Shown: one piece after another, positions 45,199 through 63,204 of the stretch
Layout: every line of letters starts with the position of its first letter
Position numbering within the stretch: the first letter of the stretch is position 1
Assembly: GCF_041146795.1 (NCBI RefSeq)
Contig: NC_135179.1
Coordinates: forward strand, 15,448,047 to 15,512,046
From: Maylandia zebra
Lineage: Eukaryota; Chordata; Actinopteri; Cichliformes; Cichlidae
Length of the DNA stretch: 64,000 nt
Direction of reading: 5' to 3'
Made by a program: the position numbers and the translations under genes
The notes under the pieces: model-generated
Databases searched by the model: none
What the model was told of the DNA's origin: nothing
Seen by the model: only the letters and a program-made list of their open reading frames with translations

Positions 45199-45525
45199 AT
45201 TGCTTTTAATGTTATACTATGGATAATAAAGAAAAACATAATAGTCACTATATATTTAAGGTGTGTTCACTGATTTACACTTTTAACCTGTGCTCCAAAG
45301 AACAAGCAAGACCATGTTCCATTTTTAAAACTGCTGTTAGCTTCTGATTATGTTGAGTGGCACAGTTAATTTAATTTCCCTTTATTAGTCTGTTTTCACT
45401 TGTAAATTAGCTAGTTTTATTTCTGTTTATTTTATTTGTTTTTGTGGTCTGCAGGCTGGATGTGGCACCAAGGAAGTTAATCGCTGATATTAAATAATAA
45501 TCCCAGTTATTAAAAAAATGTGCCA
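45199..45525. repeat. Unclassified dispersed repeat, copy 1
   Basis: The blocks ACTATATATTTAAGGTGTG, the GTTAGCTTCTGATTATG word, TTTCCCTTTATTAGTCTG and GGTCTGCAGGCTGGA recur in the same order at 52,455-52,855. Identity is high by eye. No TIR, poly-A or coding sequence is seen, so the class is unknown. Confidence 0.6.
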
Positions 45526-47300
45526 CCACTTCATTGTCCATTCACAAAACCAAAAAGCATTTTCTGTACATTTGTATTTTCCTTATTTCATTGCTTAGAT
45601 GAGTGCTACAGTATAGTTATTAGCAGATGCATCAGATGTCAGCAGAATGAGGCAAAAAATGAGAGCGACAGTAGGTTTGGCTAACAGCAGACTACTTGTT
45701 GAATACCAGTTGTCTTTAATGAGAGTTTGCTGAATGAATCCAAATGAGAAGCCTGTGCTATAGTACAAGTAACAGAGCAGGAAAAACAGATGCTGTTTTT
45801 TTACAGCTCTGTTAGTGGAGATCATCCATTTATATATCATGATAGACTGAAAGACTGAAAGATGGTTGTTGCTTCTGGATCTCAAATGTGAAGCCAGACT
45901 TGCTTAACACATGTATACGTGTATTTAAACATGTATTCTTCTAAATGGCCAGCAGGGAGCACTTCCTCTGGTGGCAAAAAGACTTGCAATTCTGAGAAAA
46001 CAGCCATCAGCCTCCTTGCTCTGTGGCCTAAACACTCTGCTGATGACTGTATGTGTTCATTTGCCAGTTTTAAGCCTTGCTGATAAGATAAAGTTTATTT
46101 TGTAAACTATGGTCATCATTAGAGCAAGAAAAGAGAATAAAACAGCATATGCTCATTGGTGAATGACTTGTCAATCATGATTTCTTGGCCAATGGCTGTA
46201 CAGCGTCCTTCAGTTTTACAGTCTGATCTACCAAACCGTAGATCTAAAGCTCAGACCAAACCGTTGCAATGGGACTTCACTGTTGTGGCTTTGCCCAGCT
46301 TTTACACCGTCTATAGTTTTCCGTTGCAGAAGCATTATGTTGCTTTTCAGTGAAATAAAAATATGGCAATACAACAAAAAACAAACCACATCTGATGCTT
46401 TCCCATCACTAACAAGTGCCATTTTGCTTAATTTTACTGCAGCTGTTTCATTTTGTTTGTTGTACATTTCATGCACTCTTTGCACTTCTGTAATGACTGT
46501 TCCATGGACTGGACTATGACTGGATTGTATTGTAGACAACTTTAGAGAAGCTTTTCCTATGACATTTCCAATAGGCTAATAAGCTATGCCTAACTTTTCC
46601 TTCTGGCTACCCAAACATTCACCTTCTCATTTATGTCACAGTAAATATTTAATGTGTAGCTATCAAAATTACATTTTCCTTTATTTTGTCATTTAGAAAT
46701 AAATTGTGATTTTGAAAAAAAAAAAGATGAACACAGTGTCCAACCTTTTTATTATTATTGTTTTTTGTTGTTGTTGTTGTTGTTTTTTAAATCAAACATA
46801 CAGACATGTTCTCTTTTCATGGACAAGTGAATCTTGGGAGTGACCCCAATCCAAGAAGATGGTTCTTGCCCACAAATGGTAGTGCATTTAAAATAGTTTT
46901 TCACTGCTTTACCTTAAAAATAAGACAGAACACTGAGAAAAGTGAGTGACCTTATCTGCAAGTCATAAATGTTTACACTGGAAAAATGGATTATTTAATG
47001 AAAGCATTAGGTTGTGTAGTGATGATAGCGAATCTTGCAAAAAACAAAAAACAAAAACAAACCAAACCCAAAATGTTATATACTTTATTATAGCAGCGAT
47101 AAAACTGAAATGCTACAGGAACTTCAAATTCACTTTTTAGGTTTGGGTCTTTGGGTGTTTCAGAGACACTGGATTGCTAGAGTGAAAATCCTGTTCAGAA
47201 AGGCCGTGTTGAACAGTGAAATATTCATGGAATAACAGACACATTCTGACTAAGGTAATGCTTGTATAATGCCTTCTTTTCCAGAAAATACTGTGCTTGC
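45526..47300. other. Intergenic DNA between papss2 and minpp1 copy A
   Basis: AT-rich. It includes a T/G homopolymer stretch (46,750-46,790). Short frames at 45,595-45,885 and 46,228-46,539 have no recognisable similarity. It probably includes the minpp1 copy A 3' UTR at its right end. Confidence 0.4.
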
Positions 47301-50300
47301 CTAAACTTCAGCAGGCTGCTTGAACAGCTGACACTCAGTTTCAAAGTCGCAGCCTTGGAGCAGATCCCTGTAGTGCTGCAAGACATCCTGATAGAGCGGC
47401 ATGGAGGCCTGATCAGCCAAACCAGGGAATGTTACAGGCTTCTCATTGAGCAGCGGCTGCAGTCTGAGGTCACCTCCCCCGCAATCATAAAGCACCAGGA
47501 TCAAGTTAGCTGCATAGGGCAACATATGGCTTGTGCGAAAGGAACGGCGGGTCTGTGCAGCGAAGTTAGTTGAAGTCAGCGGTTCGCTGTCATTGAAGAA
47601 GCCCAGAAGGGTAAGCAGAGGCAGGAGGGTCTCTGCATGGCCCACCTGGACTGTCACAGCTTCAGCCACCTGCTGGCCTGACCTACAGAATACACAGTTT
47701 CAGTGTTGAAATATGAGAACTCAAACAGTCAGTTAATTGGTTTGTTGATTGCCACATGGACTCAGCATTTCTGACAGCCTGTGAACACCAGGTATCTATT
47801 AGGGATTGGCTGAGCTTATCAAATATGGGGATTGTGGGGTTATTACCATCTTCAAATACATTGAAGTGATTGACATTAATTTTTAACTGTAAATATGACT
47901 GTAGTTTCTAAATAGTTTTTAGAAATAGCATTTAATTAATTAAAAGTACATATCAGGGAGGAGCAGGAAATAGAAATTCCAGCTAGAAATGAAAACGAGT
48001 CAGAAGCAAAGGCAAGGCAAGGCAAGGCAAGTTTATTTGTATAGCACATTTCAACAACAAGGTGATTCAAAGTGCTTTATATACGACATTAGAAACAAAA
48101 ACAAATAAAAAGCATGATTTAAAATTGATTAAAACAAGCAAACAAACAAACTAATTAACAAACAAACAAAACAGTATATAAAATCAAAACAGATAAAATC
48201 AGAACAATAGATAAAATCAGTAGTTAAATGTAAGTTTTGAAATTTAAGCTTAAAAGTGTGGATTTGGTGCTTTATTCAAATGCAGCTGAGAATAGGTGAG
48301 TCTTCAACCTGGATTTAAATAAACTGAGTGTTTCAGCTGATCTGAGGCTTTCTGGGAGTTTGTTCCAGATATAAGAAGCAGAAAAAGCTGAATGCAGCTT
48401 TTCCGTGTCTGGTTCTGACTCTGGGAACTGATAAAAGACCGGATCCAGATGACCTGAGGGATCTGGAAGGTTCATACTGGGTCAGGAGGTCACTGATGTA
48501 TTTTGGTCCTAAACCATTCAGAGCTTTATAGACCAGCATCAGAACTTTAAAGTCTATCCTCTGACGGACAGGCAGCCAGTGTAAAGACCTCAGAGCTGGA
48601 CTGATGTGGTCCACTTTTTTGGTCTTAGTGAGGACTCGAGCAGAAGAGTTCTGAATGAGCTGTAGTTGTCTGACTGATTTTTTAGGTAGACCTGTAAAGA
48701 TGCTGTTACAGTAATCAAGCCTACTAAAGATGAATGCATGGACTAGTTTTTCCAGGTCCTGTTGAGACATCAGATCTTTTATCCTTGATATATTCTTGAG
48801 GTGATAGTAAGCTGACTTTGTTATTGTCTTAATGTGTTTTTCTAAGTTTAGGTCTGCATCCATCACTACACCCAAATTTCTCGCCTGGTTTGTGGTTTTT
48901 AGATGTATAGATTGAAGTTCTCTGGTGACCTGTAATCGTTTTTCTTTGGCGCCAAAGACTATTACCTCAGTTTTGTTTTTGTTTAGCTGGAGAAAATTGT
49001 GGCACAGCCAGTCATTAATTTCCTCCATGCATTTACCAAGAGCTTGTACAGGGCCTCGGTCTCCTGGTGACATTGTGATATATACTTGTGTGTCATCTGC
49101 ATAGCTGTGGTAGTTTATTTTGTTGTTCTTTATAATCTGTGCCAGTGGGAGCATGTAGATGTTAAACAGAAGGGGTCCCAAGATGGAACCTTGGGGAACT
49201 CCACATGTGATACTTGTCTGCTCAGATGTGAAGTTACCTATTGATACAAAGTATTTCCTGTTTTCTAAGTATGTTTTGAACCAGTTTAGTACAGTTCCTG
49301 AAAGACCTGTCCAGTTCTCCAGTTGTTTGAGTAATATGTTGTGGTCAACTGTATCAAATGCTGCACTGAGATCCAGTAAAACTAAGACTGACATTTTTCC
49401 ACTGTCTGTATTCAGACATATGTCATTGAACACTTTGGTCAGAGCGGTTTCAGTGCTGTGGTTCTGTCTAAAACCTGACTGGAAGGCATCATAGCAGTTA
49501 TTCTGTTTTAAGAAGTAACTGAGCTGTTGAGAAACTGCTTTTTCAATGATCTTACTTAAAAATGGGAGATTTGAGATCGGCCTGTAGTTGTTCATTTGTG
49601 TCTTGTCAAGATTGTCCTTTTTCAGTATAGGTTTGATTACAGCAGTTTTTAGTGATTCTGGAAACACACCTGATAATAAAGAAAAGTTGACGATCTGTAA
49701 CAGGTCTGACTCCAAAGTCTTTGAGACCTTTTTGAAAAAACTTGTTGGCAGGACATCTAAACAGCAGGAGGAGGAGTTCAGTTGACCTAAGATGTCCTCC
49801 AGGTCTTTGCTGTTAATAGGGTGAAACTGTTTCATGGTGTTTAAACAGTTTTTCGGTGGACACAGTACATATTCTGGATCTGCTGTTGATGTACCAATTG
49901 CTTGTCTAATTTTTTGGATTTTTTCTGTGAAGAATTTGGCAAAGTCATTGCAGGCCATGGTCGAATGAAGTTCAGCTGCCACTGACACAGGAGGGTTTGT
50001 TAGCCTGTCAACTGTAGAAAATAAGACCCGAGCATTATGACTGTTTTTAGTGATGATGTCAGAGAAGTAGGACCTCCTTGCACTCCTCAGTTGTAAATTA
50101 TAATTGTGAAGTTTCTCTTTATAGATGTCATAATGAACCTGGAGGTTTGTTTTTCTCCATCTGCGCTCAGCTTTCCTACACTCTCTTTTTTCATTTTTCA
50201 CCAGTGTGGAGTTTCTCCATGGAGACTTTTTCCTTCCAGAGATAACCTTCACCTTAATGGGAGCAATTGGGTCCATTACATTTAACATGTTAGCATTGAA

Positions 50301-53300
50301 GCTATTGACGAGCTCATTGACTGACCCTCCGGAAAGGTCAGGTGTTAATGGGAAGACCTGGTTAAAAATTGCACTACTGTGTTCAGTTATACACCGTTTT
50401 GTGATCACTGTTGTTGATATATTTATGTGGGCTGAGATTTTACTTTCAAAGAAAACACAGTAATGATCAGACAGGCCCACATCAGACACAGTAACCTTTG
50501 AAATGCTCAGGCCCTTGGAGGTCAGTAGGTCAAGAGTGTGTCCTCTATTATGTGTGGCCTCTGTTACATGCTGAGTCAGCCCAAAGTTGCCCAGAGTGTT
50601 ACTCAGGTCTTTAGTCCCTTTGTCCTGAGGGTTGTCCACATGGATGTTAAAATCCCCAACAATAATTACACAGTCAAAATCAACACAGAGCACAGACAGC
50701 AGTTCACTGAGGTCATTAAAAAAAGTCTGTGCAGTATTTGGGAGGCCTGTAAACATTAAGAAACACAACTTTGGATGGGGCCTTCAGCTGTAAAGCCACA
50801 TATTCAAAAGACTGAAAACTTCCAGGAGACAGCTGCTTACATTGAAATGATTCATTAAATAAGACAGCAACCCCCCCTCCTCTCCTGCTCACCCTGACCT
50901 CACTGATAAAACTGTAGTTAGGAGGGGTCGTCTCGATGAGAACAGCTCCACTGTTACTTTGGTCCAACCAAGTTTCAGTTAAAAACATAAAATCAAGGCT
51001 GTGCTCAGTGATTAAATCATTAATTAAAAATGTTTTCCCAGCTAAAGATCTAACGTTTAATAAAGCCAACTTAAGTGTTTTAGAGGTATTACTTGTCCCC
51101 TCGTGTTTGGGAGCAGTCTGTGGCACACAAGGTATGTTTACTATGTTTAAAGATCTTTTAGAGTGCAGCTCTCTGTGTTTTGACCAGGCCACATGTCTCC
51201 TGTCACCTAAAAGTACAGAAATTTTAAAACCTTCTAGTAAACAGGGTCCCAGCTTCTCCTGGAAAAAGTCGCCACTGCCATAATCCTCGCAGCCCGGACC
51301 CTCCACACATCACACATCAGACTGCGGAGACAGGGCATGAAGGTGGTAAGGAGGAACTAAGAGCAATGTGACTTCGATTGCTCTGTTGAGGGTGGGGCTC
51401 GATGGCGAACCTTTGGCCGCTCTGGTGGGGGGTTTATGGGGGACAAAAAGGGATTGGGCCGGGGGGTAGATCTGAGCCCAGCATTGACCCGCTTCATCAT
51501 CTCCTCAGTGAATTTCAGGTGTGGGGAGGAGGGAGAAAGGGAGGGGGAGGAGGGTGATGGCCTGTCAGGGGTTTGGGGGACTGGGGAAGATTGTGGTCCC
51601 TGGTCCTGGTCGTTGGTGTTGTTGAGAGAATTGGAGGCAAATAGGGACCCCTCTTCTTGCCTCAGATGTCTCTCCTTTCTGAGGCTCTTCCCGGGTGGGG
51701 GCAGATGGAGCTCCTCCTCAAGGTTTCTGCTGGGCTTTGTCTGTTCTTGGAGTTCTGTTTGTTCCTCTTTATGAGATAACTCCTCGTTTATCTCAGCCTT
51801 GGCACCAAGCACAGATGGATGACGTATGGAATAAAACAAGTTGGAGGTGAACAGTTTCACCCCTGACTTGTTAAAATCAAATCTATTTGCTTTAAACAGA
51901 TGCCTGCGTTCCCAAAAAATATTAAAGTTGTTGATAAAATGCACTGAGTGGTCCGCACATGCTGATATAAGCCATTTATTCAGTGTAAACAACCTGCTGA
52001 ATCTCTCGTCTCCTCCTCTGACGGGCGGTACAGGTCCACTGATGAATACAGCTGCATTCAGAGAGTTTACAGTATTTAGTAATCTAGTAAAGTCCCGTTT
52101 CAGAACCTCCGACTGTTGTTTGGACACATCGTTTGACCCTGTATGCAGAACAATGTTTGTCACAGTTGGACATTCATCTGCAATTTGAAGAATTCTCTCC
52201 TTCAGGTTGTTGACCATATCGTTAGGAAAGCAGAGGACTTTTCAAAGAGTTGTTAAAGATCTTTAACAACCAGATAATAGATTAGGGTTCATACATCTGT
52301 AACCTTTTTAACAGCTTACTCAAGATGACATTGCAAAAGTCCATTCATTCAAATTCATTGCTAAAAACAAGCCCCAGAAAGGAGGGCAAAGCCTTTGCTC
52401 ACTCTGATGTTTTAAAACTCCCACAAATCTAGCTGGAGAAATACCCAATGTTGTTTTTATTGTCCTATTATCCTATAGATTAGAAAGACAAAACATAATG
52501 GTCATTATATATTTAAGGTGTGTTCACTGACTCACAGCTTTAACCTATGCTCTAAAGAACAAGCAAGGCCATGTTCCATTTTAAAAGCTGTTGTTAGCTT
52601 CTGATTATGCTCAGTGGCACAGTTACTTTAATTTCCCTTTATTAGTCTATTTTCACCAGTAAATTTGCTAGTTTTATTTAAAGAAATCAGTATTATTAGC
52701 CTAATATTTTCCAGTAAAGATGAAAGGCTTACATATATGCAACTCCTAAAAATAAACTTAACAAAAATTAAGAACAATGTTAATATTTTAGCTCATGTGG
52801 TCTGCAGGCTGGACGCCGCTCCAGGAAAGTTTTAATCCCAGTTATTAAAAATTCGAGTTCATAATGATTAAGTGTAACCTTTTCTATAGCTTACTCAAGA
52901 TGACACTGCAAAATCCATTCATTTGAATTCATTGCTAAAACCGAGCCCGGTGAAGGAGGGCAAGGCCAGAATGTTCTAACTTTTACTAACGTTTCTCACT
53001 CTGATGTTTTAAAACTCCCACAAATCTCACTGGAGAACAACAAAATGTTGTTCTGCTGTTTTTTTGGTCTCAGAATTTCTGTGACAGATGACTGCAGTTG
53101 CTCGCACATTGTGCTTGGCTGAAAGGTACAACCCACAATCTGCTCACTCTGCAGTCACATTTTAAACAGTCAGAATCACCCACACACATGCTTTAACGGT
53201 GAGCGTGTAGTAAAGTTGTTCTCTTTTCAAAACGGGAACTTTACGATTGCATCCTTTCAACACATGTAACAACACAACCTGGGTTGGCTCTTCACTACTT

Positions 53301-56300
53301 ACACTCAGTGGCTGGATTATTAGATACATTTGTTGCATTTTAACACCAATATCTAACTGGCCAATCACATGACAGCAACGTATTACATTTAGGTATTTAT
53401 ACATGGTGAATAACTAACCTTGAAGTCAATAAGCTACAGCAGCAGAAGACTACTGTTGCCAGCTAATAAAAAGAAACTGAGGCTACAAGTAATATGGATC
53501 TCAAAAAATGGACAACAGATAATTGGAAAACTGTGGCATGTTCAAATGTCTCTCAGCACAAAGTAAGCATTGTTTAACACCGCAGCCTACCTTAGCCTCT
53601 GTACATATTTGTACATCTGATGGCTGCTCCCAGCCTATCTCAAATAATCTCAGACTAGTTGAATGAACAAGACAACTGGTTCATTCCACTCAAACGCACA
53701 ATCATCAGATCTCAATTCAGTGGAGCAACTGACAAATATGCAGCAGTTGTATGATGCTTTAAGTCAGCATGTTTCCAGCACCTTGTTGAATCTATAGCTT
53801 CAAGGTTTAAGGAATTTCTAAAGGCCAATGGAGATGGGTGGGGGTGGGGGGTGTTCAACTTAACACAGTAAAATAGGAACTTTCCTAATAAAGTGGTCAG
53901 CGAGTGTATGCTAATGAGCCACACTTTTGAAATATAGCGAACACGAGCTCTGCTGTCTTTTGAGCTGATCCCACATACTGTAGTTCAGCTAAAATAATAT
54001 CCAGCAAGTTTTGCTTCTGCCTGGATTCAGGGCTGAGCAGTGAGTCCTTTTCCCCCAAATATGTTTATTAACATGAGAAAAATATAGTGTAACACCATTT
54101 AAGGTTTGCTTACATGTTCTCTTCAGCTGCTTTTTCCAGACGGCTGAAAACATCATGGAAGAGAATGCAGCTTGACTTGCTGTTAATGTCATAACCATAG
54201 CTTCTTTTCCAGAAGTGCTTCAGATCATTTGCATACTCCATTACCTGTTGAATAAGAAAGTCAGCGTCAATGCCAATTTTACTTATATAGCACATTTCAT
54301 TACACATAAGCATGGGCTTATTGTAAAAGTTGAAAAAAAAAAAAGTCTAAGGCAATAAAAACAGCAAAACAAAACTGTAAAAAGGAATGAAATACAAGTT
54401 AACATTTACAGGCATGCAGACACACACACAGTTATTAAGTGTAAGGCTGTTAGAATAAAGAACGTTTTGAGTTTGATTTCGAATGTGAAGCTTTAATTGG
54501 CCTTAGCTTGGTTCACAGGACAGCACTACAGTAACTAAAAGCAACCTCAGCACACTTAGGTGTAGCTCTGGGAACAGTTAACAGATCTGATAACCTGAGA
54601 GATCTAATTGGGTTACAGACAGTGAACAAGTCAGTAATGTCCTGGGGAGTCAAACTATTGAATCCTTCATAAACTAACAGAAGGATTTTAGAGGTAATTC
54701 TATATCAAACTGAGAGCTAATGCAATGACGTCAACGCTGCGGTAATACTACAAACACAAAATTAGTCTATGTGCAAATCTGGCATGACTAAACAAAAAGG
54801 ATAGAAACCTGCTGATCGTTCACTGTGCAGGTGACAGTTCAGGCTTTCTGAGATCAGATTGCAACATAAGACACAGGAATCTCTTTGTGAGGTGAAGTAC
54901 AGGACACATTGGCAGGATCTTTCTCTAATCTGAAGCTTGTCTCTTTATTTGTTTCTACTTATTTATTCATAAAACAGACTGTGCACATGAAATGCAACAG
55001 CTGTGATACAGGGTATTTCATTTAATTTGGCTGGTTTTCTTCTTGTTGTCTAGTTATTTGGTGAATTGGAACAAAATTTGGCAAATTACTGCCACCAACT
55101 GGACAAACTTGTTATAGTTTTATTATTCTAGTAGTTGGGGTGTTTGTCCCTTCAGTTAAGGGTAAGAGAGTCAGCTCACAATAATTTATTTTTAATAAAG
55201 TGACAGAAAGTTTGCACTTGTAAAGAATTTTATTTAATGATGCTCAGGATGATTCTTATGTTGTTCATTATTTTGTTTTCACCTATGCGTACGCTCTTGT
55301 GTGTTTTCAGCCTTGTGTTTTCAGCCTTGGGGCGACCGTGGCTCAGGGGTTGGGAAGCGTATCTGTAACCGGAAGGTCGCCGGTTCGATCCCTGGGCTCT
55401 CTGTCCTCGTCGTTGTGTCCTTGGGCAAGACACTTTACCCTACCGCCTACTGGTGTTGGCCAGAGGGGCCGATGGCGCGATATGGCAGCCTCGCTTCTGT
55501 CAGCCTTCCCCAGGGCAGCTGTAGCTACAACCGTAGCTTGCCTCCACCAGTGTGTGAATGCGAGAGTGATTGAATAGTGGCATTGTAAAGCGCTTTGGGT
55601 GCCTTGAAAAGCGCTATATAAATTCAATCCATTATTATTATTGTGTTTTAGTTTTAGTTGTATTCCCGTGTGGTCCTCAGGTCAGGTTGTCAAATCTCCA
55701 TCTAAGTTTGGTTGTGGTTGTGACTGTGTTACTTCCTGTTTTATTTTGGTAGTGTCTTGTCTCTTGTGTCTGTATTAAGTTTTACTTCCCTGTTTGTTCC
55801 CTATCACCTATAGGGCTATACTAATGAAACTACATGATAAACATTTAGAAAAGTTACAGAAAAGATTCTGTTTAATCATTGCTCAGACTTTCTTGTAATT
55901 ATAAGTTTAGAATATAAAACTTTAATTAATTCACACAAAATTGCCTTGCACTTTGGTGTGGCATGAATGGCAGTGGGTGGAGGTCTTTATTAGTTGGAAA
56001 AGCTGTAAAATTTTATACACTCCTTAATATTTTCCAAAACTGTCCATTGGAGTCTTTCCTGGGCTGATTCTGGCCCTCAAAATGTTTGACACTCCTGTTT
56101 TAGAGTTTTCTGTCAACTTATTCACTGACTGAATTTTAAATATCTTTTAGATTCTTTGGACTTCCTGTACTGAGTGCATTAAAGGCTGATTGCCTGAGAT
56201 TAGGTCCTACATCTGCAACAGAAGCTCTATTCAATCAGTAATACATCATTTATCTCTGTGTGTATGTGCTTGATAGCACCCTTAGTAAGAAAAAAATATG

Positions 56301-58179
56301 GCCTGTAAATAAATTGCCACAGTCTACAAAAATTAAAAGTACTGTGGACATTTCTGAAACTGGAAACATTGTAATCGGGGGTGGGGTGGGGTGGGGGGTG
56401 GGGGGGTCCATCATGCTTTCCCTACTGTGATACACGACTCAAAGTTAATCTGAAGCACATATTACTGCTTTATCACAATGTGCAACCCTATTCCTGTGTC
56501 ACCTGTGCATCGACCTCGTCGTAGAGACGACACCATGGAGAGTTCACAGTCTTGATGGCAAACTCATACGCACACAAATAAAATGCAGCTTCGGCCATAT
56601 CTGCAGGAAAAAGATTAAAACAAAATGTTAACAGTCAGTGAAATCACAGCAGTCAGGAAGCTGTTAGAAAAACAGAACTGAAAGCAGGAAGCGACATATT
56701 AAAAATCTTAGGAGCATGGTATGTGTTGCATTTTCTTTATACAACTTTAAGTATGGAAGAAAATCCTGAAATTAGGTAAAAGTTCCAATTTATTTGGGTA
56801 ATAAAGACAACAAATAATGGAATGGAGAATGGAGTAGTATTTGAAAGACACCATTAAAAGTACAAAAGTACAAATAAACATAATTTAATATATATTACAT
56901 ATATTTTGATAGTTTAATATATATTATATTAGGTAGTTCATTTAAATGGTAACAAATCTAGGAATCAAAGATCATTTCAGAGGTTTAAAAGATTCTCTTT
57001 TTTGTAACAAGATGTATACATATTTGGCTTTTTGGAGCATGTAATAAATTTCTGTTTACAACTCAGAAATATCTGAAAAGAACTCCTAAAATATATAATA
57101 TGATAAAACATGTTAGAGGTAAAAAAAAAAAAAAAGGTTGAAAAGTATTATTTCAGTATTTTCTTTTCACATTTCATGTATAATGAAGATGTGAGAGTTA
57201 AAAAAGCACAACGCTTCTCTGTGAAATATGGAAATGAACTTTCCAACACTCATGCTGTTTCAAAGCCACAGCTGAATGTTGTCGAAAGCTGCACGTTCCT
57301 AAACCGCACCAAGCAGACAAACTTCTACTATCAGCATTAACGCTGAGTGAACTTGCAGTATTATTGTTATTATGTTTGAAAACAGCTCCATCTACTGTGC
57401 AAATATCTGCTGTAAGAAGCCCAGTGACACGCCATAAGCAGAATTTCAGAAGTTTTTATTTTAAAATGTTTGGTAATAATTTAGTAATAATTATTGGTGA
57501 AATGTAGAAAGTGTTCAATTGTTAAACCCGTGAAGCCAAGATGTGACAAAATTATCAAATAAATGTGTTAATAGACCAACTAGAAATTGTAAATAATAAC
57601 ACACCAGCTATTTCACGGATAAATAATAGAGCCTCTGTCTGTCTGTTCTACATCTAACTCAAAAGCTTTCAGCTGATCTACTTTAAAACACAGTGACTTT
57701 AATCCTTGGGAAGTGCACTACTAAGCTGGTGTCATTCTAAGGAGTGACAGATTAATTTTTGTGGCCACACACCTCTGTGGCAATATAAAGATGTCACCAG
57801 CTACAATGAGGGTAGTTTATAAATCAACTTTCACTGACTGTGAGATCTAACTTTGCTGTTAAAGACATGCCTGTAACAGTTAGACCCACAGTGGTAACAC
57901 ATATTAACATAACAAGCGGTAGACTTACGAAACCAAAGCGGCCAACTGATGTTTAAGTTGTGAAATGTGCATCACGTATGGTTTTTGACAGTTTCATTAC
58001 TTGTGAATTCATGTGGGGGAAAAAAAAGTCTACTGCGTCTACTGCAAGTTCTTTGAGCTTGCACTGTGTAACGTGGCACAAAGAAATCCTGCACAATATT
58101 AACCTACTATATAAACATATATCTACTGTCATATTTAGGTGTTCTGTACTCTAATCAGCTGTAATCAAGTGGTACTCTA

Positions 58180-58231
<52 letters not shown>

Positions 58232-59152
58232 GCTTAATCTGATTATATGTAATGCTCTCAAAATGATGGATATGATAATACACCACTAACCATCTGTGAT
58301 TGCACTGTATGGGATGTTGAGGATGTCTGCGATCTTCTGCTGGACCCTCCTCATCTCTGGCCCTTGCTTGAACTTCTCCACCTCTGTCACAGCTGATGGG
58401 TTGTTATCAACTTCCTCCAAAAACCTGGTGCATTTATCAAAAAACCTCATGAGAGCGTCATTCACCGCGTGATCAAACTCCATATCTGCACAGAGGAAAG
58501 CAACAGATTATAATGAGCAACAGGTTATGCATAAAGGGGCCATCATAATAATCATGGTCGTACCTTTAATATGCCACAGTTCTGTTAGTCCTGCCTTGAA
58601 GGACAGTGTGCTGTTGACACACCTGTGCTTTGAGCTGGTTATGAATTTGATGAATCCACCTCGAAGCTTCTCCTCTGAAATCAGTGAGGGGAACAGCTTT
58701 GACAGCCTGACAGCCAGGTGTTTGTGATCATTCACACCTTTCTGGACGAGTCGTCCGTCCATGTCCTCGGTGTACCACATCCTCCACTGGTTTTGCAGTT
58801 CACGCAGCCAGTTCCTGTTGGAAACATTGCTGCCCTGAACCACGTCGTAAAGCTTCTTCATCTTCTTGACGTTTTTTGTGGTCGGGTATCTGGTTCCGTG
58901 CCTTATTACGGCTGTCAGATGGATTTGGCGACATTGTGCAGACGGAGGCTGTAAAATCGATCTGTTTACAGCAAGTATGTCCTCTATGAGATACGGGTTC
59001 ACTTCCTCATACCTTCCTTTCGTGCTGAAATATTTGGCGATTGCTGGGATCTCTGGGTTCTCCTCTGGATTCACGTCGGTACAAAAACAGCTGGAAATAC
59101 CGGTTATGATGGTAAAATAAAAAACTGCGCTTTTCCTCAAAGCGGTCGTCAT
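47301..59152 (-). CDS. minpp1: Multiple inositol polyphosphate phosphatase 1, tandem copy A (5 exons)
   Basis: Histidine acid phosphatase that dephosphorylates InsP6, InsP5 and related inositol polyphosphates, in the ER lumen or secretory route in known members. Exons on the minus strand: 58564-59152, 58291-58485, 56503-56600, 54114-54244 and 47301-47682. They total 1395 nt, or 464 aa, and all introns are GT-AG with matching phase. A hydrophobic N-terminal signal peptide covers about residues 8-24. The catalytic RHGTRYP is at 84-90 and the proton-donor motif GHAETLLP has HAE at 353-355. The protein ends FKQPAEV, without the SDEL retention signal of human MINPP1. The last intron (6.4 kb) contains a sense-oriented LINE of about 4.2 kb, and intron 3 has a LINE relic next to exon 4. 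The 3' part of exon 1, intron 1 and most of exon 2 are identical to copy B. Confidence 0.93.
48272..51306 (-). pseudogene. LINE ORF2: endonuclease and reverse transcriptase, two frameshifts
   Basis: Three overlapping frames together cover one ORF2. The endonuclease N-terminus is 50716-51306, the main endonuclease/RT block 48333-50768, and the C-terminal tail 48272-48475. The first break falls in a run of seven A (plus strand) at 50718-50724 and the second in a run of five A at 48382-48386. Each is explained by one extra base. All core RT motifs remain, including SYADDTQ. The element is therefore a young but inactive copy, unless the breaks are assembly errors. Confidence 0.82.
51357..52235 (-). 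pseudogene. LINE ORF1 with SGNH hydrolase-like domain, N-terminus missing
   Basis: Open frame of about 290 codons. The first ATG is at 52217, but the frame stays open further upstream (CFPND before the Met), so the real start is lost by 5' truncation. The first 130 residues look like an SGNH/GDSL esterase as in CR1-clade ORF1 ([12 protein letters not shown]). I do not see the GDS serine block or the usual block V histidine. The rest is a low-complexity, Pro/Ser/Glu-rich linker. Confidence 0.7.
52300..53060. repeat. Unclassified dispersed repeat, copy 2, with an internal direct repeat
   Basis: 52,455-52,855 matches copy 1. In addition 52,300-52,450 and 52,860-53,050 are direct repeats of each other (shared TAGCTTACTCAAGATGACA type start, GGAGGGCAA, and ACTCTGATGTTTTAAAACTC). 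They bracket the shared block. This may be the long terminal or sub-terminal part of an unknown element. It lies in minpp1 copy A intron 4, just upstream (in gene direction) of the LINE. Confidence 0.55.
53302..53906. mobile_element. Internally deleted Tc1-like transposon in minpp1 intron
   Basis: Starts CACTCAGTGGCTGGATTATTAG and ends CTAATAAAGTGGTCAGCGAGTG, flanked by TA on both sides. Internal words (acagcagcagaagacta, gaaactgaggctaca, caccttgttgaatct) match the coding strand of a common fish Tc1 transposase gene. Most of that gene is deleted and no frame is left. Confidence 0.72.
54268..54740 (-). mobile_element. LINE/SINE 3'-end relic beside minpp1 copy A exon 4
   Basis: Begins with the TTATATAGCACATTTCA type 3' end and continues with lines related in wording to the 3' region of the full LINE (gaggtcact.., cattcagagctttat.. 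equivalents). It is decayed and has no open frame. It starts about 25 bp upstream of the exon 4 acceptor on the minus strand. Confidence 0.5.
55329..55645 (+). mobile_element. tRNA-derived SINE
   Basis: The head resembles a tRNA gene. An A-box-like TGGCTCAGGGG lies at 55339-55349 and a perfect B box GGTTCGATCCC at 55382-55392, spaced as in RNA polymerase III promoters. A 200 bp body follows, with a tail (AAAGCGCTTTGGGTGCC, then GCGCTATATAAATTCAA) that resembles LINE 3' ends, then (ATT)n. It lies in intron 3 of minpp1 copy A, antisense to the gene. It cannot fold as a functional tRNA along its whole length. Confidence 0.8.
58176..58231. repeat. (CTAT)n microsatellite in minpp1 copy A intron 2
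   Basis: About 13 CTAT units, 60 bp left of exon 2. It is absent from copy B. Confidence 0.95.
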
Positions 59153-61133
59153 GATGGGTTACTTGTGAGGCCGTGCGCAGACCCGAGAATGACGTCGATC
59201 ATGTGGGACTGTCCAACCAATGCCTTGTAGGGGGAACGATACGAAAATGACAAGCTCTGCTTGTTTATTAATATTCATGGTGATCGTATAATTTCTGAAA
59301 GTGACTGTCCGTCGGTTTCCAAAAGTTATTTGATACTTTGAGGAATATTTTGGGTTTTTTAAAAAAATTGATTTGATAAAAGTAGCTTACTGTTTCACAC
59401 TAAAGCTTTTGAAGCATGACTACGAGGCATGACTTTTTGGGGCACATCACCCTGATCTGAAGTGCTAGAGTTTTCTCTTCTTGCCACTTAATTAGATTAA
59501 AATTATTAAAATGAAATTCTAAACTCTTCATTAACTCCTTTATTTAGGAATGTAGCAGGAGCAAATGATTAGTAAATAATGGTAATGTGTTAAAAATCTC
59601 TTAACATCATCAATTAAAAAGGGTTTTCTATAAACAAAAGACAGTTGTCTGCACACACAAACCCACAGATTTGCATCATTGTATCTTCCCTCAGCGTTAG
59701 TGCACTGTAATGGAGATCAGAGATTCAGCTTACTGAAAGTCTACACATGTTTTATTGTTTATTGAATTCTTTATTGAGCTTAGCTGATATTTTGGAGGAT
59801 TGTTTAGGTGACAGTTCGTGGTTGGTTGGTGTTGATGTGTTTTTCAGAGAAGCCTGTTATTTATTCATAAAAATCACACAATAGCACGTGGATTTTATTT
59901 ATCAGCTTTTTGCCTCTTTTTCAAAAACTTGATGCCACCTCTAGTCAAATATTTAAGCAGTTTGAATATGATGCAAAACATAGCATGCAAAATAGGTTTG
60001 CCGTGAAATCTCACCTTAAACATTTGCATCATTGAAACTGCATGTTGTAACAACAGCTGTTTGTTTAGAGAAGAACAGTAATTATTAGCTTCACCACTGC
60101 AGTGGTACCTTAAGTCATCAGTCACTATTTAAATGACACTCCACACCAGAGCCGCTTATTCCCAGATTGTGTTGTAATTTAAAAAACAAAAACATAAACA
60201 AATGATGACAACAACAACAACAAAACAAGCTACTTAAGCTGTTAAGTAAGATTTTGGATTTAAGATATAAATTTTTTAATGTGCACACCTCTCTGACTTC
60301 CCCAAATAGCTCTGTGAGGGTGTGACATTACTTGAAATTAAAGTCATTTGTGTCAGTAGTGAGTGAAATATGTGAATGTTTGTCTTCTTGGCAGTGACAC
60401 ACCCACAGCCTTGCACTTTTTTTTTATGTAATATACACTGCCTGTTGCCAATGGCATCAGCAAAGGCAGATGCTGGAGTAAGCAAACAACGGTTATTAAT
60501 TATTGTTGGTGTGTGTCACATCATCTGGGAGTTCACAAATCACTGAAACACAGGCTCTAATCACATAAATCAAGCATGGGAAGCAGAACTGAGACATCAT
60601 TTGCGAAATACTTTCATGTGTGTTGCCAAAATATGTGTGTGTCTGCATGCTAGGTGTGGTGGTGGGGGATGGGGAGAGTGTCTTCTCCCTTGCCAGGGAA
60701 TAAATAAGCAAATAAATAATAAATACATTTTAAAAAAGACATTATCTTCTGCTATTGTTAACCTTTATGCTGGATTTATGACTCCACAGATGCGAACTCC
60801 TCTAATGCAAAAATGTCTTATTATTATTTAGTTTTGAATGAATCATATACCATCGGCAATCATGGAAGCTTATAACTACTTAAAGGTTTTTGGGGGTTTT
60901 TTCTATAAAAGAAGATTTCTTGAACATTTTGTTAAACAAATTAATAGAAATAAAACAGAGCATATTTGTCCATTTATTTCTTTAATGTCAGAGCTTAAGA
61001 AAAGATGGTCATCGCTTCAAGATGGAACACTTAGAAATAAAAGCTTTTTCAGCCAGTTGCGTTTTTACTGTAGGAGCCTATCATTTATTCCACTGTGGAA
61101 AAATGAAATAACAAGACCTCTGTTAATATCTGC
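59153..61133. other. Spacer between the two minpp1 genes
   Basis: 2 kb holding the copy A promoter (right of 59,152) and the copy B 3' UTR (left of 61,134). AT-rich, with no other gene or clear transposon. Confidence 0.55.
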
Positions 61134-63204
61134 CTAAACTTCAGCAGGCTGCTTGAACAGCTGACACTCGGTTTCAAAGTCGCAGCCTTTGAGCAGATCA
61201 CTGTAGTGCTCTAAGACATCTCGATAGAGCGGCATGGAAGACCGATTAGTCAAACCGGGGAAAGTTACAGGCTTCTCATTGAGCAGCGGCTGTAGTCTGA
61301 GGTCACCTCCCCCGCAGTCAGAGAGCACCAGGACCAAGTTAGCTGCATAGGGCAACATGTGAGTGGTGCGGAATGAGCGATGGGCCTGTGCAGCATAGTT
61401 GGTTGATGTCAGCGGTTCGCTGTCCTTGAAGAAGCCCAGAAGGGTAAGCAGAGGAAGAAGGGTGTCTGCATGGCCCACCTGGACTGTCACAGCTTCAGTC
61501 ACCTGCTGTCCCAACCTGCCGCACAGAGGAGAAAGAAAGTTTAAAATTAGCTACAGTTCCTGCTGTAAATCTGAAGATAAACTGTAAAGAAAACACAAAA
61601 GCGGGACTCTGGAGTCCATCCCAATGCCATATAAAATTGTCCTTTGATGAATGGTTTCTAGTTATGTAAACATAATTGTTTCATGTATTTCTTTAATCAA
61701 GGGCATCAAAAACCTACAGGTTATTAAAAGTTCACCTACTTATTCTGAGTGGCCGTCTTGTCCATTCGGCTAAACACGTCATGAAATAGGATACAGCTTG
61801 CCTTGCTGTTAATATCATGACCATAGCCTCTTTTCCAGAATTCCCTTAGGTCACTTGCATACTCAATAACCTGTTAAACCAGATAAATGCTCAAAATTGA
61901 AACAAGATGTTCAACTGTTTAAACCACAAAAGATTCTTCTGGCTTCTCTAACAACCTCATAAACATCTGCACTTAATATATCTGATGGCTATCTCCTACC
62001 TTTGCATCGTCCTCGTCAAAGAGCTCACACCAGGGGGACTTCACTGACCTAATTGCAAATTCGTATGCACACAAGTAAAATGCAGCCTCAGCCACATCTG
62101 CAAGATAAATGTTAAGTGGTTCAGTAACACAGGCTGTTCAAACATGGATTCTTCTCTTCCAGAGAGGTGGCATCCTCACAAAATGAACTAGGAAGCGTTT
62201 AGAGAGCAGCCTTCATCTGACTGCTCAGAATGAAGTTAACACTGAAGCACCTTAGATGTAAGATATATGATATTATAAATAAGGCATTGCTCTGTTAATA
62301 CAGATAATAAGAGTGCAGATAATACACTCAGTCTGGTTTTGTAGATACAACCGTATGTGATGGAACTGTATGGGACGTTGAGGATGTCTGCGATCTTCTG
62401 CTGGACCCTCCTCATCTCTGGCCCTTGCTTGAACTTCTCCACCTCTGTCACAGCTGATGGGTTGTTATCAACTTCCTCCAAAAACCTGGTGCATTTATCA
62501 AAAAACCTCATGAGAGCGTCATTCACCGCGTGATCAAACTCCATATCTGCACAGAGGAAAGCAACAGATTATAATGAGCAACAGGTTATGCATAAAGGGG
62601 CCATCATAATAATCATGGTCGTACCTTTAATATGCCACAGTTCTGTTAGTCCTGCCTTGAAGGACAGTGTGCTGTTGACACACCTGTGCTTTGAGCTGGT
62701 TATGAATTTGATGAATCCACCTCGAAGCTTCTCCTCTGAAATCAGTGAGGGGAACAGCTTTGACAGCCTGACAGCCAGGTGCTTCAGCTCATCCACACCT
62801 TTCTGGACGAGTCGTCCGTCCATGTCCTCAGTGTACCACATCCTCCACTGGGTCTGCAATTCGTGCAGCCAGCTCTGTTCTCCTGAGGCATTGTGCAGGA
62901 TCATGTTATAGAGCTGCTGCATCTCCTTAATATTTTTGGTCGTCGGGTATCTTGTGCCATGTCTTATTATGGCTGTCAGATGAATTTGTTGACATTCATC
63001 CAGTGGAGGCTGTAAAATTGACCTGTTTACAGCAAGTATGTCCTCTCTGAGATACGGGTTAACCTCCTCGTACCTCCCTTTCGTGTTGAAATATTTGGCG
63101 ATTGCTGGTATATTAGCCTCATCTTCGAACGTCACGTAATTAGATAAAAACCCAGAGGTGTAAAAAACATAAAACACTATAAATTTCCAAAGAAAAGTCA
63201 GCAT
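61134..63204 (-). CDS. minpp1: Multiple inositol polyphosphate phosphatase 1, tandem copy B (5 exons)
   Basis: Second, compact copy of the inositol polyphosphate phosphatase, lying about 2 kb upstream of copy A in the same orientation. Exons on the minus strand: 62625-63204, 62352-62546, 62000-62097, 61740-61870 and 61134-61515. They total 1386 nt, or 461 aa. Exons 2-5 have exactly the same lengths as in copy A (195, 98, 131, 382). A signal peptide-like hydrophobic start is followed by catalytic RHGTRYP at 81-87. The acid motif reads HAD at residues 350-352 instead of the family's HAE. The C-terminus is again FKQPAEV, with no SDEL. The donor after exon 2 (GTTGTA) is weak. The donor after exon 4 must be the GTAGGT at 61734-61739, because reading through meets a TAG at once. 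The gene is intact and probably active, but the HAD change could alter catalysis. It could equally be named minpp1b; the ohnolog or duplicate naming is not resolvable here. Confidence 0.92.

Follow-up and report, generated by a model that had tools for sequence, protein, structure and literature searches.

Identical tract in two diverged tandem minpp1 genes of Maylandia zebra, consistent with recent interlocus gene conversion

Two tandem minpp1 genes of Maylandia zebra, which encode an inositol-phosphate phosphatase and are here called copies A and B, share a tract of 405 identical base pairs, and their sequences argue strongly (probability about 0.92) that it was left by recent, in-place interlocus gene conversion between them. 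We infer that the underlying break repair was non-reciprocal and recent, and that one event would suffice. The analysis covered one genome assembly and, within it, a window of 64,000 nucleotides (contig C13, 15448047–15512046).

The two genes and their shared tract

The exons of both copies were located by tblastn, exon by exon, and their limits were set from GT-AG splice contexts, which also delimit the introns given below.

47301..59152, minus strand: minpp1 copy A, 464 aa (exons 58564–59152, 58291–58485, 56503–56600, 54114–54244 and 47301–47682)
61134..63204, minus strand: minpp1 copy B, 461 aa (exons 62625–63204, 62352–62546, 62000–62097, 61740–61870 and 61134–61515)
58316..58720, minus strand: tract in copy A (3' part of exon 1, intron 1 and most of exon 2), exact match to 62377–62781
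62377..62781, minus strand: tract in copy B, exact match, one of two places found in the genome DNA search
58486..58563, minus strand: intron 1 of copy A, 78 bp, the same as 62547–62624
62547..62624, minus strand: intron 1 of copy B, 78 bp, the same as 58486–58563

An earlier note had read 58316–58720 and 62377–62781 as identical by eye, and the match proved exact (405/405 bp) and maximal, with mismatches at the first bases past it on either side (58315/62376 and 58721/62782). The offset between the copies is 4061 bp and does not vary across the tract or into its two flanks; the tract is therefore free of indels. In agreement with the extent outlined in the same note, it takes in 157 bp of exon 1, the entire intron 1 (0/78 differences) and 170 of the 195 bp of exon 2, so that the identical coding run, intron excluded, amounts to 327 bp or 109 codons. 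A whole-genome DNA search with the tract returned two places, both on C13 (copies A and B).

Both spliced reading frames are intact, and the products match the Pfam family His_Phos_2 (PF00328; copy A, 3e-33; copy B, 3.7e-34) and carry the RHGXRXh motif of histidine phosphatase branch 2 as RHGTRYP. A PDB search at E ≤ 10 with the spliced protein of copy A gave 16 sequences: 15 bear the names phytase, histidine acid phosphatase or MINPP, and one is an isocitrate dehydrogenase (E 0.78). With a read-through translation of copy B exon 1 and the greater part of intron 1, PDB gave nothing at E ≤ 0.001. The HAE triplet is present in copy A (GHAETLLP, 47631–47639) and in a third paralog on contig C8, whereas copy B has Asp for Glu (GHADTLLP, 61464–61472). 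HAD in place of HAE, the presumed proton-donor triplet, may change catalysis in copy B; the triplet is described as frequent in the MINPP group, not universal and not strictly defining, in a passage of PMC7762957. The C-terminal residues are PAEV in both tandem copies (47301–47315 and 61134–61148) and NTEL in the C8 paralog. Human MINPP1 ends in the ER-retention signal SDEL, and given their PAEV ends copies A and B may be secreted.

A LINE-like element (48333–52241, minus strand) lies within intron 4 of copy A. Its open frames have 816, 197 and 294 codons; by eye, the 816-codon frame resembles a reverse transcriptase and the 197-codon frame an endonuclease. A 190-bp sequence recurs in direct orientation (90% identity; 45233–45422 and 52490–52679, spacing 7257 bp), its second copy just past these frames and its first copy outside gene A. 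Just 3' of the copy A stop, a weak exon-4-like translation (47188–47286, minus strand; 33% over 33 residues, E 0.002–0.004) is probably a chance match and possibly a relic exon.

Divergence around the tract and at its edges

Outside the tract the two genes are much diverged, as the earlier note had observed: 217/1056 coding sites differ (839/1056, 79%, identical), with 306/423 identical in the remainder of exon 1 (72%) and 175/229 in exons 3 and 4 combined. Introns 2–4 could not be aligned between the copies, again in line with that note (no blastn hit at E ≤ 0.01); between the upstream regions, nothing scored better than E 0.46. Codon comparison (461 aligned codons, 109 in the tract and 352 outside; Nei–Gojobori counts, Jukes–Cantor correction) gave 0/70.5 synonymous and 0/256.5 nonsynonymous differences within the tract, against 100/243.1 (~41%) and 117/812.9 outside it, where dS is 0.60 and dN 0.16. 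When the 217 differences were shuffled 20,000 times over the 1383 coding sites, the longest identical run averaged 34 and never exceeded 97, compared with the observed 327. Third-position GC (0.615 in the tract; 0.567 and 0.55 outside it in A and B) bears no clear mark of GC-biased conversion.

Identity had been said to drop abruptly on both sides. This holds on the intron 2 side, where five differences fall in the final 25 bp of exon 2 and intron 2 then fails to align; on the exon 1 side it holds only in part, with five differences in 58721–58732, four in 58733–58801 and 33 in 58802–58875. Once the tract is taken out, no run exceeds 36 bp; the one of that length lies in the 58721–58803 shoulder, a marginal excess (P 0.043). 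We considered this shoulder as the remnant of an older, longer tract and set that idea aside, the depletion of differences relative to the C8 paralog being non-significant (p 0.15). Near the exon 2 end of the tract, Tandem Repeats Finder placed one further feature:

58180..58231, no strand: (TATC)13 microsatellite within copy A intron 2, at ~85 bp from the tract

The counterpart region of copy B (62201–62376) contains no TATCTATC. As a conjecture, the repeat could be a break-prone site, in which case copy A would be the copy that broke and received sequence.

The identity could also be an artefact, if assembly or polishing had replaced part of one copy with the sequence of the other. Such an error at homologous positions would likewise preserve frame and register. 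The assembly is contiguous, however (962 Mb in 63 contigs), and the window is without N; reads longer than 4 kb should keep apart copies that differ by ~20% in coding sequence and whose introns 2–4 are unalignable; and no stray haplotig was seen, the DNA search having found the two C13 places. We consider an assembly or consensus error quite unlikely.

A third paralog, constraint on the tract and exon 5

The third minpp1 gene (C8:30324561–30327350) has seven exons by splice reading, an extra intron splitting the counterparts of exon 1 and of exon 5 of the tandem copies, and a third-position GC of 0.82, compared with 0.55–0.57 in the tandem copies outside the tract. A genome-wide minpp1 protein search gave, among the best candidates scored, 17 matches, of which ten belong to the tandem pair on C13 and seven to the C8 gene, and just under 20 kb on each side of the window (four pieces) held no further copy by tblastn at E ≤ 1. 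A genome search with Pfam His_Phos_2, which did not pick up the C8 minpp1 gene, gave 14 matches that, besides copies A and B, lie on C14, C7, C16, C1 and elsewhere on C8; compared with the two minpp1 proteins, these other loci showed no match better than E 0.7. A scan of viral contigs for relatives of the exon 1 part of the tract found none.

The C8 gene serves as an outgroup within the same genome. In the tract, copies A and B share 56/109 residues with it (51%) and differ at 53, and amino acid identity to C8 elsewhere is 54% in exon 1 (58721–59060), 62–66% in exon 3, 50–55% in exon 4 and 53–55% in exon 5; the N-terminal stretch (59061–59152) is poorly conserved, at 16–37%. For the coding sequence from 59060 down, leaving out that stretch, A–B differences set against mean A/B–C8 differences are 0:138 in the tract and 174:398 in the rest (Fisher p 1.4e-19; here and in the other C8 contrasts, p values are descriptive, as site counts are non-independent draws). 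Judged against C8, constraint on the tract is ordinary, yet A and B are perfectly alike there.

This comparison bears on the idea that purifying selection, or an overlapping functional element, holds the tract identical. The tract does encode a conserved SSKHRC, common to the C8 paralog, in which the third of the arginines that bind phosphate in MINPP enzymes may lie, a candidate equivalent of Arg-142 of BlMINPP, the residue assigned that role in a section of PMC7762957. Synonymous sites and intron 1 are nevertheless unchanged as well, and because the C8 paralog has diverged normally in this region, as in others, purifying selection does not explain the identity. An embedded RNA was rejected on the same divergence together with an Rfam scan of 58000–59300 (copy A region, E ≤ 1), which found nothing within the tract; its sole match, at 58849–58974 outside the tract, scored 26.3 of 45 bits, far under the cut-off. 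With 0/70.5 synonymous and 0/78 intron differences, ordinary divergence from C8 and the register kept, the earlier note's preference for local transfer over selection is supported; among the explanations put to a test, a recent transfer of this kind is the one that fits, and we regard selection as having almost no claim to the tract.

The earlier note had also called exon 5 unusually similar, rightly so in view of the values for exons 3 and 4 given above:

47301..47682, minus strand: exon 5 of copy A, candidate older converted segment, 338/379 sites identical to copy B
61134..61515, minus strand: exon 5 of copy B, counterpart of this candidate segment, 338/379 sites identical to copy A

Exon 5 differs at 41/379 sites compared with 54/229 in exons 3 and 4 (p 4.6e-5), and at 26/127 third positions compared with 34/76 (p 4e-4). 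Against exon 1 (58734–59060) the contrast is clear over all sites (41/379 versus 70/327, p 1.7e-4) and weaker at third positions (26/127 versus 35/109, p 0.052). Relative to C8, A–B differences are 41:154 in exon 5 and 133:244 elsewhere (p 4e-4); the corresponding ratios are 0.265 for exon 5, 0.575 for exon 1 (58804–59060), 0.657 for exon 3 and 0.571 for exon 4. Two short stretches adjoining the tract give 0.321 and 0.370. The suggestion that exon 5 is a second tract thus has moderate statistical support, with the amendment that such a tract would be older and partly decayed. The similarity fits an older conversion of this kind, and a locally low mutation rate is a possible alternative.

Probable interlocus conversion between the minpp1 copies

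In the scenario that we favour, an old tandem duplication would have given rise to the two genes, which diverged until introns 2–4 were beyond alignment. At a far later date, one copy would have suffered a double-strand break and been repaired with the other as template, which would have overwritten ~405 bp that begin in the 3' portion of exon 1, take in intron 1 and end within exon 2. Because the tract shares its 4061-bp register with homologous flanks, the sequence was replaced in place and not inserted, and the two genome matches leave no extra copy. Two unequal crossing-over events between the tandem copies, or a mosaic haplotype, would leave the same footprint in one genome as conversion does and would involve no break-repair conversion; this would require two exchanges ~405 bp apart with copy number unchanged, where conversion needs one event, and it strikes us as very improbable.

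The length of the tract lies within the average of ~200–500 bp that PMC3924818 gives for conversion tracts, in the portion of that article available to us. According to the same portion, conversion occurs mainly at >80% identity, though it is possible at lower values (PMC3924818); the ~79% identity of the flanking coding sequence, with introns 2–4 unaligned, is at the edge of this range and counts against conversion. Flanks at 79%, and 72% in exon 1, imply either a rare event between diverged copies or a patch kept alike by earlier conversions. Since paralogs so diverged convert rarely, it is plausible that the conversion was the latest of several rounds that kept the patch alike, exon 5 representing an older round.

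By the rule of three, zero changes in ~130–150 near-neutral sites set a 95% upper bound of ~0.02 on divergence in the tract, ~1/30 of the 0.6 reached at synonymous sites outside it; we claim no age in years. On the assumption that divergence in the tract once equalled that around it, an estimated ~24–28 of 109 residues were probably replaced in the recipient enzyme. More tentatively, the tract may be the core of a long-lived 'conversion island', in which paralogs at or below ~80% identity, a level usually regarded as too low for ready conversion, keep exchanging one patch and exon 5 is a second, decaying one. The most recent round would then have exchanged roughly one residue in four along 109 codons of the recipient at a single stroke, giving a chimaeric MINPP1; we hold this extended version to be doubtful.

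Interlocus (ectopic, non-allelic) gene conversion in tandem duplicates offers the closest known parallel: there, too, diverged paralogs of a single chromosome share in place a short tract that is identical down to its silent and intron sites, and 405 bp is within the lengths reported in the consulted part of PMC3924818. The minpp1 case differs in that its flanking divergence is at the high end and that it is known from one genome. In the account that the available text of PMC3728101 gives of mosaic GOT1 paralogs of the copepod Tigriopus californicus, populations were compared, in contrast to the single genome used here. Duplicated Nav exons and paralogs of toxic newts, as presented in the available text of PMC8476164, are alike in that small segments were copied between tandem duplicates or duplicate exons; a selected benefit was argued there, whereas the minpp1 tract is without known functional consequence. 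In titles and the beginnings of abstracts, the literature on minpp1 duplication in zebrafish or cichlids gave no account of the tandem pair, nor was a published description of the tract found there. In the portion of PMC6752142 at hand, minpp1 has a single mention, a minpp1a expression row for Nile tilapia.

The minpp1 tract, so interpreted, is a new case of a known, ordinary evolutionary process. Its footprint is unusually clean, with no difference in 405 bp, intron included, set against a silent difference of ~41% elsewhere, and with an outgroup in the same genome that speaks against selection. A gene tree or a duplication date drawn from exons 1 and 2 would be misled by the tract, and the minpp1 pair provides a testable case for how far paralogs may diverge and still convert.
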